This document shows, piece by piece, positions 3,204-26,933 of a DNA stretch of 28,926 nt. Both the position numbers and the translations under genes were made by a program. The notes below the pieces were generated by a model that ran no database searches, was not told the DNA's origin, and saw nothing but the letters and a program-made list of their open reading frames with translations. Numbering within the stretch: position 1 is the stretch's first letter; each line of letters opens with the position of its first letter. This DNA is from a virus, in the IMG/VR virus record IMGVR_UViG_3300044691_000255, positions 1-28,926 of that record. One strand, 5' to 3'.

Positions 3204-3397
3204 TGCACCCTCACCGTCTGATATTGGTCGAGCCGATCGCTGAACCACATACGCCCGGCGCCGCAGACGAAGCTGACCGCATCGGCGAGGTCGTCGGTCT
3301 CATCGCCCCACGCGTCGAACAGGTTGGTGATCGGCACGGTTGAGCCGTCTGTGAGGAAGGCCAGACGCTGCGGTACGCTGAGCGCCTGGATGTCCAT
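3200..3397 (-). CDS. Hypothetical protein, 65 aa
   Basis: Reads MDIQALSVPQRLAFLTDGST, then ITNLFDAWGDETDDLADAVS and FVCGAGRMWFSDRLDQY. A notable feature is the central acidic helix (DETDDLADA). Proteins with 'tnlfD..GdeTdD...A...v...g.w' occur in phage head operons just after the capsid gene, but I can assign no function. It begins five bases after the HeH gene stop and is coupled to the next gene. Confidence 0.6.
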   Translation of the reverse strand: MDIQALSVPQRLAFLTDGSTVPITNLFDAWGDETDDLADAVSFVCGAGRMWFSDRLDQYQTVRVH

Positions 3398-3402
3398 CGG
3401 AC

Positions 3403-3693
3403 CTACTCCGCAGCCGCCTCTTCGGCCGCCAGTTCCAGCGCCGCGACGATATCGGCCTTCTTCGCCGCATCGCCGAGATCGACGCCTCGCTCGGCCGCGA
3501 GGGCCTTCAGAGCGGCGACGGTCAGGTCAGCGAGCGCAGGCTCGCCCGCGGCTTCGGCCTGGCCGAGATCGTCGGCGCCGGGCGTCTGGTCAGCCGCGCG
3601 CGCCCAGCCGAGCTTGAGATGGCTCTCCAGGCAAGTGGGGTGAACGGAGATGTGCGCGCCATCTTTGGCGACGCGGATCAGGGTGTCGGACAT
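3403..3693 (-). CDS. HeH/LEM-domain phage protein
   Basis: 96 residues. The C-terminal half reads LADLTVAALKALAAERGVDL then 'DAAKKADIVAALE', a helix-extended loop-helix (HeH/LEM/SAP-like) domain in which 'lT..eLkalAeerGidl...kkkaelia.l' is the signature. Such domains sit in small phage proteins encoded next to the major capsid protein. The N-terminal part (MSDTLIRVAKDGAHISVHPT, LESHLKLGWARA) resembles the short head-protein module that often precedes it. A GGAG ribosome site lies about six bases before the ATG. Confidence 0.75.
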   Translation of the reverse strand: MSDTLIRVAKDGAHISVHPTCLESHLKLGWARAADQTPGADDLGQAEAAGEPALADLTVAALKALAAERGVDLGDAAKKADIVAALELAAEEAAAE

Positions 3694-3712
3694 GGGGACT
3701 CCGGGCTGTTGC

Positions 3713-3727
3713 GCCCGATGACCGGGC
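3713..3727. repeat. Short dyad between HNH and HeH genes
   Basis: GCCCG and CGGGC arms flank a five-base loop (ATGAC). It lies in the 39-base gap downstream of the HNH gene and just upstream of the HeH gene. No T-run follows in either direction, so it is not a convincing terminator. Confidence 0.3.
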
Positions 3728-3732
3728 TAGGA

Positions 3733-4395
3733 TTATGCGGCCTTCGCGCGCTTCGTTGCCCAGGCCTTGTGGGCTCTGGCGTTGCGCTCGGCTGATGTCT
3801 GGCTGGCCGCGAACTGGGTCAGTTTTTCGATGGTCTCTGGCGTGTGCTTTCGGGCGAGCGCGGCGGCGCGCATCTTCGCCTTGGTTTCCTCGGAGTGCTG
3901 GCGGCCAGTCATCGGGCTTGGGCGGCCCTTCAGTGCGGCGGAAGTGGCGGCGCGGTGCTCGGCGGACTTGGGCTTACCGCGAGTAGCGGCCGACATGTTG
4001 GCGCGATGCAGATCAGTCTGCGGACGCCCGGTGTTGGCGTTCCACATCTTCTGCATCACGGCGCGGTCACGCGGCACACCCTTGCGGGCCTCGCTTAGCG
4101 ACTTCGCCACCAAGCGGCGGCCCCAACCGAAGAGCTTGTTATTGGGCCGTCGTCCGCCGTGGTTCATCGACATGGCTTGCAGTGCGAAGACTAGGCCGTG
4201 GTTTCCTGGGTGCATTTTCACCAGCAGCTTGTGCGCGATGAAGTGCTCCTCGGCGGTGAGCCGCACGATATTCTCGTCGACGTCCAGACCACCCAGGGTC
4301 GTCGGGACGACGTGGTGACGCTCGGTGTAAACATCACCCAGGTCGCGATAGTAGGCTCGCGCCATGAGCGCGTCGTAATGTTTCTGGTAGTCCAT
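3733..4395 (-). CDS. HNH homing endonuclease with NUMOD3-type repeats
   Basis: 220 residues. An HNH core is visible at residues 24-56 (TERHHVVPTTLGGLDVDENI, then VRLTAEEHFIAHKLL), with the paired histidines at 27-28, an asparagine at 42 and H51/H55. The C-terminal half holds repeated helical 'S...R...S...kGR' units (GRPQTDLHRANMSAATRGKP, SAEHRAATSAALKGRPSP, SEETKAKMRAAA) typical of NUMOD3 DNA-binding motifs in homing endonucleases. It stands between the capsid gene and the HeH gene, which in related phages are normally adjacent, so it looks like an inserted selfish gene. Codon wobble is less GC-biased than in neighbouring structural genes. Confidence 0.85.
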   Translation of the reverse strand: MDYQKHYDALMARAYYRDLGDVYTERHHVVPTTLGGLDVDENIVRLTAEEHFIAHKLLVKMHPGNHGLVFALQAMSMNHGGRRPNNKLFGWGRRLVAKSLSEARKGVPRDRAVMQKMWNANTGRPQTDLHRANMSAATRGKPKSAEHRAATSAALKGRPSPMTGRQHSEETKAKMRAAALARKHTPETIEKLTQFAASQTSAERNARAHKAWATKRAKAA

Positions 4396-4403
4396 GCGGC
4401 GTC

Positions 4404-4433
4404 CTGGCGGTTGATTATGAAACCAACCGCCAG
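4404..4433. repeat. Perfect 10-bp inverted repeat between capsid and HNH genes
   Basis: CTGGCGGTTG (4404-4413) and CAACCGCCAG (4424-4433) are exact reverse complements around a 10-base loop. The hairpin lies 30 bases beyond the capsid stop and ends just before the HNH start codon. There is no T-run on either side, so a simple intrinsic terminator is unlikely. It could limit translation of the endonuclease, stabilise the capsid mRNA 3' end, or mark the insertion boundary. Confidence 0.6.
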
Positions 4434-4463
4434 TGTATCGCAGGTAATCAGGTTAGTCGAATA

Positions 4464-5627
4464 CTAACCCATCAGAGTGGCGATGTGGGAGTCTTTGATG
4501 GCTTGGTAGCCCCATGCAACTCTCACGTGGTAGACCAACTGCATAAATTGGCGATATACTGCAATCTCGTAAGTAATCCCAGTAACGGGATCAGTAACGA
4601 GCATGGTGTCGTCCGCCATGTCCATGGCCTTGCCGTCGGGACCGATCGGCATCTGCGGCGGGCGGGTGATCAGCATGATCGCCGAGCGGGAGAAGGCCAC
4701 GTTCGGCGTATAGGTGCCGCCCACGGTCATGGCGTTGGCGGTGGCGATGACCACGCGCGCGCCGGGGCTGTTCAGGGTGATCGTACCGGCCGCCGCGACG
4801 CCGGTTCCAACGACGTACTTGTTGTTGGCGTCGGCCGCGAACGTGACCACGCCGCCCGCAAGCACGGTGCCGGTGCCGGTGACCAACGCGATGTCCGTGA
4901 CGCCCATGGCGGTCGAGCCGGAGGTGACGTAGGACGCGCCCGTGCCTGCGGCGACGGCGGAGATCGCACCCGAATTGCGGATCGCGAAGCCTTCCAGGCG
5001 GTCGGTCATGCCGTTACGCAGCATGTCCGCGGAGCCCGCCTCGTTGACCTTGAACAGGCCGCTCTGCTTGCCGCGCAGCTTGGCGATGGCCGCCGAGCCG
5101 AGCACGATCTGCAGGTCGTCCTGCGGGGCGCCGTTGTCATCGAGGATGCGGCGGGTCTCGGCCAGGTCGGAGAGATCGACCGCGGTGCCGAACGGCGTGG
5201 TGCCGGCGGTCCCGTAGGCGCGAGAGCTGTTCTTGTAGGCGGTGTCGTGGAGGTCCGCCTCCATCTGGTTGCGCAGCGCGCGGAACGCCTGGGCGAACTG
5301 GCCGACCAGGATTCCGTTGTAGCTGCCCGCGTTGATCAGACCCTTCTGCTCCTCGCCGTTCCAGCGGATCGGAACGTGCTTGGACTTGGAGATGGTCATC
5401 GACACGTTGGTGATCGTCTGGTCGCCGGTGTCGGGCGCCGAGACGGCGGGGGTGTTGTCCGCCAGGGTCGCGGACGGCGTGATCGGAACCAGGATCGTCT
5501 GGTCCTTCGCCGCGCGTTCGGCGCTGGTGTTGCGCGTGACGGCGGAGATATAGCCGGTCTGTTCGACGGAGACGACGTCAAGCGCCTCGTAGATGGTCGG
5601 AGTCAGGGACGTGAGGGTGTTGGCCAC
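4464..5627 (-). CDS. Major capsid protein (P22 coat / gp5-like family)
   Basis: 387 residues with a GTG start at 5627, preceded by AAAGGA eight bases upstream. The order of motifs fits P22-type coat proteins with an HK97 fold: N-terminal 'VSVEQTGYISAVTRN', then 'ILVPITPSATLADNTPA', a helix 'ALRNQMEADLHDTAYKNSSR', the strand-helix 'LDDNGAPQDDLQIVLGSAAI', then 'MTDRLEGFAIRNSGAI', a variable insertion of about 90 Gly/Ala/Thr-rich residues, and the C-terminal 'MLVTDPVTGITYEIAVYRQF'. It follows scaffold and portal genes in the correct order. The last 45 codons or so (4464-4604) change abruptly to A/T-ending codons, unlike the rest of the gene. Confidence 0.85.
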   Translation of the reverse strand: MANTLTSLTPTIYEALDVVSVEQTGYISAVTRNTSAERAAKDQTILVPITPSATLADNTPAVSAPDTGDQTITNVSMTISKSKHVPIRWNGEEQKGLINAGSYNGILVGQFAQAFRALRNQMEADLHDTAYKNSSRAYGTAGTTPFGTAVDLSDLAETRRILDDNGAPQDDLQIVLGSAAIAKLRGKQSGLFKVNEAGSADMLRNGMTDRLEGFAIRNSGAISAVAAGTGASYVTSGSTAMGVTDIALVTGTGTVLAGGVVTFAADANNKYVVGTGVAAAGTITLNSPGARVVIATANAMTVGGTYTPNVAFSRSAIMLITRPPQMPIGPDGKAMDMADDTMLVTDPVTGITYEIAVYRQFMQLVYHVRVAWGYQAIKDSHIATLMG

Positions 5628-5677
5628 GGGAGTGGTCCTTTCAGGGCTGATGATGCTGCGGGAGGGGGATTTCTCAG

Positions 5678-5701
5678 GGGGTCATCCGACCCGTCGCACC
5701 G
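5678..5701. repeat. Intergenic repeat copy A, upstream of capsid gene
   Basis: On the plus strand it begins GGGGTCATCCGACCCG and continues with GC-rich sequence ending near a CATCCG. The GGGTC/GACCC arms form a small hairpin. A second copy lies upstream of the scaffold gene at 6560-6583. It sits in the 117-base leader between the scaffold stop and the capsid GTG start; nothing else is seen in that leader besides the capsid ribosome site. Confidence 0.5.
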
Positions 5702-23907: not shown

Positions 23908-24435
23908 TCAGGCGCGCGTCGGCGTGCCCGTGGTGGTGGTGGCGCTGCGCTCCCCGAAACGCGGGAAGTTGAAGCGCCCGTATTGTCCTTGGTGCTGGCG
24001 CGCGGCGGCGTCATACGCACGGGCCGCTTCCTCAGCCTCGGCGAAGGTGCCGAGATGTCGGTTGCGGTTCGCGACGCTGATTGTGGCCCGGTATTTCGGC
24101 CCGTGCGGCGATACGCCCTTGAAGCCCGAGGCCGACACGCTCAGCCGGTTGGCTTGGTTTTGTGCATGGCTGCTCTCGCGAAGATTCGAGCGCGTATTGT
24201 TGAGTCCATCGCGGTCTTCGTGATCGACCTCAGCCCCAGGAGCCGCCTCAAGGATTTCGCGGTGCATCAGGACGGTGCGGTGTCCATCTGCGCGTGATGT
24301 CGTGCGGTAGGCATAGCCCGTGGTCAGGCCACTCTTTGGCGGCGCGTAGAACCAGACCCAGCGGGTCAGCTCGGCAAAGTCGTCGTCGTCAACGACCGTG
24401 ACGCGGCCCTGAGTCAGAGGGATTTCACGCGTCAC
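23908..24435 (-). CDS. HNH endonuclease with AP2 DNA-binding domain (copy 1)
   Basis: 175 residues from a GTG at 24435 with AGGAG nine bases upstream. It has the layout of AP2-HNH homing endonucleases: N-terminal 'TREIPLTQGRVTVVDDDDFA', the HNH core 'VLMHREILEAAPGAEVDHED' with 'RDGLNNTRSNLRESSHAQNQ', and the AP2 domain 'GFKGVSPHGPKYRATISVAN' then 'RHLGTFAEAEEAARAYDAAA'. The HNH H-D-H-N pattern is intact. A second, related copy lies at 26436-26933. It is a mobile gene rather than a phage function gene. Confidence 0.88.
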   Translation of the reverse strand: MTREIPLTQGRVTVVDDDDFAELTRWVWFYAPPKSGLTTGYAYRTTSRADGHRTVLMHREILEAAPGAEVDHEDRDGLNNTRSNLRESSHAQNQANRLSVSASGFKGVSPHGPKYRATISVANRNRHLGTFAEAEEAARAYDAAARQHQGQYGRFNFPRFGERSATTTTGTPTRA

Positions 24436-24619
24436 TAGGGAGGCTCCTGCGCTTCTCGCGCGCCGAGGTTTCAAGGCGTTCGCCAGCGTCAAACACGTGC
24501 GCGCCGATCTTGGTCAGCAGCCACCCGACGCCGATCTCGACCGTCAGCAGCAGCTTGATAGTCAGCCGCACGGAGGCGTTCGAGACGTTCGCGCCGGGCG
24601 GCGAGTTCGACTCGTTCAC
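24425..24619 (-). CDS. Small membrane protein, 64 aa, overlapping gene
   Basis: GTG at 24619; reads NESNSPPGANVSNASVRLTI, then KLLLTVEIGVGWLLTKIGAH and VFDAGERLETSAREKRRSLP. A single hydrophobic stretch (about 20-38) suggests a membrane helix followed by a charged tail. It overlaps the 137-residue gene by 131 bases in another frame and the HNH gene by 11 bases. The protein looks well-formed but the long overlap lowers certainty. Confidence 0.5.
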   Translation of the reverse strand: MNESNSPPGANVSNASVRLTIKLLLTVEIGVGWLLTKIGAHVFDAGERLETSAREKRRSLPSDA

Positions 24620-26435: not shown

Positions 26436-26933
26436 TCAGGCCGCCTCGGGGAAATTCAGCCGAGCGAACTCACCATGAAGTTCGCGGGCTTTCGCGTCGT
26501 AGGCGTGGGCGGCCTCAACAGGGCAGTCAAACCGGCCAATTACGATGTGGCGATAGTCGACGCCGATCGCCGCGATGAAGCGCCGCGGCCACCGCTTGTC
26601 GGTGAAGACACCCTTGTAGGGATTGGAGCCGCAACGTTTCTTGCCGTTCCGGGTGTTCTCGGCGCGAGTGCAGACTCGCATGTTGGCGCGCGTGTTGTTC
26701 AGGGGATCCCCGTCGATGTGATCGACCACGAACCCCGGCGCTGGCTGCATAAGGACGCGATGGAGGTAAGCGCTTCGGCGCCCCTTCGGCGTGTGCACAT
26801 TAGTGATCGCGCAGATGTGGCCGCGCCCGCCATCGAAGGTCCGCCACTTCCATTGCAGCAGGAAGTCGAAGTCAGCCGCGTCAACGAGCGTGACGTGGCC
26901 TTGGGTCAGCGGGATTTCGCGAACGTCGGTCAT
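26436..26933 (-). CDS. HNH endonuclease with AP2 DNA-binding domain (copy 2)
   Basis: 165 residues. N-terminal 'TDVREIPLTQGHVTLVDAAD' is similar to copy 1. The HNH core 'YLHRVLMQPAPGFVVDHIDG' then 'DPLNNTRANMRVCTRAENTR' carries H-DHIDG-N residues, and the AP2 domain 'NPYKGVFTDKRWPRRFIAAI' then 'RFDCPVEAAHAYDAKARELH' follows. It overlaps the Cro-like gene by four bases, so it is expressed as the second early gene. As a selfish element it probably cuts phages lacking it and spreads by repair. Confidence 0.88.
   Translation of the reverse strand: MTDVREIPLTQGHVTLVDAADFDFLLQWKWRTFDGGRGHICAITNVHTPKGRRSAYLHRVLMQPAPGFVVDHIDGDPLNNTRANMRVCTRAENTRNGKKRCGSNPYKGVFTDKRWPRRFIAAIGVDYRHIVIGRFDCPVEAAHAYDAKARELHGEFARLNFPEAA

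Follow-up and report, generated by a model that had tools for sequence, protein, structure and literature searches.

The closest known case to the locus described here is found in fungal mitochondria, where mobile endonuclease ORFs (mORFs) come with foreign C-terminal gene ends, at atp6 of Allomyces and at atp6, atp9, cox2 and nad3 of Glomus (PMC3630166). Homing with co-conversion is already known in phages. The free-standing endonucleases of phage T4 (the seg and mob genes) show intronless homing with co-conversion, and they typically cleave at sites hundreds to thousands of bases away; hairpins covering the ribosome-binding site have been described for I-TevI, segB and Aeh1 mobE (PMC2988022). 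Phage endonucleases are also found at the boundaries of genetic exchange, in HEG islands (PMC10448857), and exons beside the mobile introns of yeast mitochondria show raised variation (PMC5378118). In the general view of homing, a recipient becomes resistant once its target has been replaced by donor sequence (PMC12724721). In the literature examined, no account was found of T4 free-standing endonucleases with a neighbouring gene end recoded in a protein-preserving way, and no phage precedent for such recoding tied to a free-standing endonuclease was found in mainly open-access literature.

The locus analysed here lies in a 28,926-base stretch of viral DNA, hereafter the window. As in the fungal mORFs, the endonuclease gene lies immediately after the 3′ end of an essential gene, this end is spelled differently with the protein largely kept, and the pattern recurs, in the fungal case in several genes. 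The enzymes differ, being LAGLIDADG or GIY-YIG beside mitochondrial genes in the fungi and HNH beside a phage capsid gene here. With the T4 seg and mob genes the locus shares a free-standing gene of HNH type flanked by conserved phage genes, a hairpin before the start codon and an expected co-conversion of flanking DNA, but the target that we infer is adjacent rather than distant. In HEG islands, too, endonuclease genes adjoin essential structural genes, capsid genes among them, and mark the edge of exchanged DNA; the islands are large and of high identity, whereas the tract here is ~30–170 nt long and has raised divergence. The intron-flanking exons resemble it in their excess of largely protein-preserving coding variation beside an endonuclease element, and in that donors are missing there too, although that system involves mitochondrial introns and there is no intron here.

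Results

The capsid gene of the window (Table 1) matched the P22 coat protein family PF11651 (E = 8e-7) and the major head protein family PHROG 283 (E = 3e-94), and its relatives are 49–85% identical over the full length. Its GC3 is 0.93 (319/342) through codon 343 and falls to 0.55 (24/44) from codon 344. The maximum-likelihood changepoint was placed at 4599, with a log-likelihood gain of 20.3 that was equalled in none of 5000 permutations. This agrees with a preliminary description of the DNA, which had put the shift at about 4604 and had quoted A/T-ending codons that are indeed present (in GTT ACT GAT CCC GTT ACT GGG ATT ACT ... GCA GTA TAT). Its figure of ~45 shifted codons needs adjustment, as the shift itself stands but covers 44 codons and is strongest in codons 344–366; the final 22 codons have a GC3 of 0.68. 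Among the 13 minus-strand window genes checked, the capsid tail has the lowest 45-codon GC3 (0.56), the next lowest gene reaching 0.62.

Table 1. Features at the capsid–endonuclease junction, in window positions.
Feature	Position	Strand	Basis
Major capsid gene (P22-coat type), 387 codons	4464..5627	minus	PF11651, PHROG 283
Recoded tail, codons 344–387 and stop	4464..4598	minus	Changepoint test; excess synonymous change relative to endonuclease-free relatives
Codons 377–378 (ATC AAA), tentative core of lost target	4494..4499	minus	NTC AAG in most endonuclease-free relatives
Hairpin, 13 bp with 4-nt loop, between capsid stop and HNH start	4404..4433	minus	z −4.7; 0/200 shuffles fold as well
Free-standing HNH/NUMOD3 homing endonuclease gene, 220 aa	3733..4395	minus	PF07460, PHROG 655
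Next gene	3403..3693	minus	Directly behind the capsid gene in endonuclease-free L009

The HNH gene begins 68 bases past the capsid stop, as previously described. It matched NUMOD3 (PF07460, E = 2.9e-13) and the PHROG 655 family, annotated ‘homing endonuclease’ (E = 5e-53), and an HH...N...H region is conserved in the alignment of the family. By family membership, then, it is a free-standing homing endonuclease, and the window has one copy of it. No relative of it was found in the plasmid collection searched. Two further window genes of the HNH_3 type (23908–24492 and 26436–26933) have N-termini like each other (EIPLTQG.VT) and are possibly additional mobile endonucleases. The insertion is variable among relatives: the window has the order capsid gene, HNH gene, next gene, and L009 has the same two flanking genes without the HNH gene. 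Since these two genes adjoin in L009, the next gene bounds the insertion on its far side. It is not recoded (GC3 of 0.82 in the first 22 codons vs 0.81 in the rest). A group I intron or other self-splicing element was rejected, as no gene is interrupted, the capsid frame being complete with a conserved C-terminus ahead of the endonuclease gene, and no Rfam match at E ≤ 1 was obtained within 3300–5700.

A possible Shine–Dalgarno sequence (AGGA, 4402–4405) overlaps the 3′ end of the leader hairpin in the window. Among the relatives introduced below that carry an endonuclease gene behind the capsid gene, a strong hairpin lies just before the endonuclease start in nine of ten loci folded (z −3.9 to −7.3; L118, −1.5), with a sequence that differs between loci, and the spacers behind endonuclease-free capsid genes have a mean folding z of −2.3. 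By likeness to the known leader hairpins, these structures may act on expression of the endonuclease.

For the comparison, 151 distinct capsid genes were collected by scans of viral and genome contigs. An endonuclease gene lies directly behind the capsid gene in 11 of them. Nine of these carriers have PHROG 655 genes, namely the window, L209 (=L005/L006), L008, L091, L210 (=L177), L118 (=L206), L223, L287 and L317, with L209 and L008 representing one lineage. The other two, L175 (1411–2058) and L035 (4093–4776, minus strand), have a gene of an unrelated HNH family (PHROG 3377/374) at the same place, on the strand opposite to the capsid gene in L035, and their tail GC3 is lowered too. Part of the carriers were obtained by endonuclease-based searches, that is, they were selected on the gene and not on the tail. 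When 110 downstream ORFs were scanned for overlooked endonucleases with Pfam and with PHROG (the first 25 of 36 families), the only members found were five already counted; loci L284–L333 were screened by tblastn only. The AT-rich phages of the capsid set include no carriers.

The endonuclease and the tail shift go together. All 11 carriers are within the top 16 of the 151 genes when these are ranked by tail GC3 drop (p ~ 3e-8). The same codon change in relatives without the HNH gene would have spoken against the link drawn in the preliminary description, yet over the last 44 codons GC3 rises on average by 0.04 (sd 0.065) in the 132 endonuclease-free genes for which 700 nt or more of downstream sequence is available, as compared with a mean change of −0.18 in carriers. 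In most carriers the changepoint lies 10–57 codons from the gene end. Taken singly, several carriers (L210, L287, L317 and L175) show no significant changepoint, as might be expected if codon use had simply fluctuated by chance; this explanation is refuted by the permutations in the window and by replication across separate lineages, and we give it next to no weight.

On a tree of capsid bodies, from which the tail was left out, the endonuclease state changes ten times. Independent pairs drawn from this tree were concordant in 8–10 of 10 cases (median 9) and opposed in none (p 0.002–0.008, with the tail lengths and the low-tail cut-off of the test set after the data were seen). This suggests that the pairing of endonuclease and recoded tail arose about ten separate times, and the previously proposed link between codon shift and endonuclease gene is thus strongly supported. 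Purely vertical inheritance of the endonuclease was rejected, because capsid and endonuclease identities are only weakly correlated (rho 0.41, p 0.06); L287 pairs a close capsid gene with a distant endonuclease.

Only L176, L174 and, more weakly, L207 approach carrier values among the 132 endonuclease-free genes. In L174, whose tail is recoded, an apparent remnant of a PHROG 655 N-terminus (VDYQKTSDRLVQRA, p 0.002) lies ~110 nt past the capsid stop, which would fit a decayed cassette. L176 has a GC3 of 0.41 in the last 22 codons vs 0.76 in the body and has neither an endonuclease gene nor a visible remnant; it may represent a resistant allele or a loss without trace. The nearest relative of the window, L002, has a tail GC3 of 0.82, and its contig stops 41 bases past the capsid stop.

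The tail changes are largely synonymous. When each carrier was compared with its nearest endonuclease-free relative, synonymous change in the last 22 codons was above the level of the body in 11 of 11 cases, and the same tail-vs-body comparison averaged −0.04 for endonuclease-free pairs. The tails of L209 and L007, for example, differ by 20 synonymous and one non-synonymous changes over 44 codons. With outgroups used to polarise the changes, nine triples together give 99 GC>AT and 22 AT>GC in carrier-branch tails, as compared with 30:28 in sister-branch tails and 346:183 in carrier bodies. Carrier branches do not consistently have more tail changes than sister branches, so a bias in direction is better supported than a raised rate.

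The position of the junction is clearest in L206, a carrier, and L207, which has no endonuclease gene. Their capsid genes are 94% identical, with 61 differences in the first 1020 nt, none over the following ~70 nt, and then eight in the final 33 nt, all synonymous and located at the start of the insertion. The spacer of L207 is replaced in L206 by the leader and the endonuclease gene (apparently frameshifted in L118/L206), and high identity returns at the start of the next gene.

Codons 377–378 are the most consistently altered among carriers. The sequence NTCAAG is kept in 89 of 109 endonuclease-free genes with GC3 > 0.6 and in only 1 of 11 carriers, a difference partly confounded with the overall GC3 drop. 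We tentatively regard these codons as a candidate core of the target.

Discussion

We consider that the capsid tail, the hairpin leader and the HNH gene probably constitute one homing cassette, whose tail would be without the cleavage site. On co-infection with a related phage without the cassette, the endonuclease would cut or nick the conserved capsid 3′ end of that phage. Repair templated by the cassette-bearing genome would then copy the endonuclease together with the re-spelled capsid tail, which preserves the protein while the target is gone, so that the tail would be both copied flank and altered target. Such a target would lie within the last ~10–45 capsid codons, the recoded tail would be immune to the endonuclease, and tail and gene would move jointly by co-conversion. 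The finding of the same tail pattern with two unrelated endonuclease families favours the cassette, as do the remnant beside the recoded tail of L174 and the tail drop of the L334 capsid gene. Against it stand the recoded tail of L176 without an endonuclease, the lack of likeness among carrier tails beyond that of their bodies, the failure to find a donor, the number of tail changes, which is not consistently raised on carrier branches, and the fact that the last 22 codons of the window, the supposed core included, changed less than codons 344–366. Furthermore, T4 free-standing endonucleases usually cut far from their own gene, and the target therefore need not be in the capsid tail.

The main competitor is plain co-conversion from donors of lower GC, in which the tail is dragged-in foreign DNA, its A/T spelling is donor composition and no immunity is involved. 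The preliminary description had offered both origins, a tract from a donor phage or recoding against cleavage, and the data are compatible with either. We regard this as a real possibility, if not the one we would choose. The tails and the endonuclease genes of carriers are both lower in GC3 than the capsid bodies, and the junction of L206 and L207 looks like a conversion tract. In the window, however, the tail GC3 of 0.55 is far under that of the endonuclease gene (0.80). No near match for any carrier tail was found among the 151 capsid genes: best codon identities of carrier tails to other lineages are mostly 0.55–0.73, whereas the best matches of endonuclease-free tails average 0.87. A single shared donor tail is not supported, since carrier tails resemble each other no more than carrier bodies do and no common transferred tail is thus seen. 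The sole hint of a foreign origin is the tail of L317, whose identity to that of AT-rich L184 is 0.83 (0.64 in the body; 0.62 for the endonuclease-free sister L305), which is suggestive, but a likeness of this degree is only in the top 2.3% of pairs. The fungal mORFs differ in both respects, as their donors were inferred from trees and the displaced native end is in most cases retained downstream; a tblastn search with nine tails against 2.6 kb downstream of 13 phage loci gave nothing convincing for a displaced capsid end (best E 0.018).

Repeated cutting followed by error-prone repair could instead raise mutation nearby, with purifying selection sparing the synonymous changes. Such mutagenic repair is one proposed cause of the raised variation beside yeast mobile introns (PMC5378118) and would fit tails that are private to each lineage. 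We think it unlikely, as the changes run in one direction, from GC to AT, the total of tail changes is not consistently up on carrier branches, the gene beyond the window insertion is unaltered, and the changes between L206 and L207 keep to a 33-nt stretch, the gene matching elsewhere. Mutagenic repair, import from a donor and selection for escape are nevertheless mutually compatible. The association by itself gives no direction, and such a tail occurs in L176 with no endonuclease beside it, so the endonuclease might settle preferentially beside capsid ends that are already AT-rich; but vacant AT-shifted tails are nearly absent among the 132 endonuclease-free genes and outgroups place the AT changes on the carrier branch, which makes this order of events very improbable. 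Equally improbable is a tail that carries a promoter or unstructured RNA for expression of the endonuclease. Although the tail adjoins the leader, with its strong hairpin in most carriers, the recoded stretch varies in length from ~10 to 57 codons, and the L035 tail is recoded even though the endonuclease gene is on the opposite strand.

The homing cassette, if it operates as proposed, has a bolder extension, which is possible although we lean against it: a natural home-and-rescue drive, in which the endonuclease attacks the essential capsid 3′ end and brings with it a cleavage-immune, protein-preserving spelling, and which arose independently in about ten phage lineages, with endonucleases of two unrelated families. 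Recoded-rescue designs exist among synthetic gene drives, and the locus would, if this is true, be their natural counterpart. A recurrent recoded end of an essential gene would likewise be a sequence signature by which the targets of free-standing endonucleases could be read from genomes. The cassette model also predicts cutting of the capsid end as a means of mutual exclusion between co-infecting phages.

Related endonuclease genes occur behind other genes as well. A PHROG 655 gene lies behind an N4-gp56-like capsid gene (L135/L334) that has the largest tail drop among 45 relatives. More distant relatives of the endonuclease located behind other genes give a mixed picture, and little can be read from AT-rich genomes. 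In three AT-rich phages (L096, L097 and L098), PHROG 655-like genes were seen ~55 bases past a gene whose product ends in CDSCSI, an ending like the C-terminus of ribonucleotide reductase large subunits.
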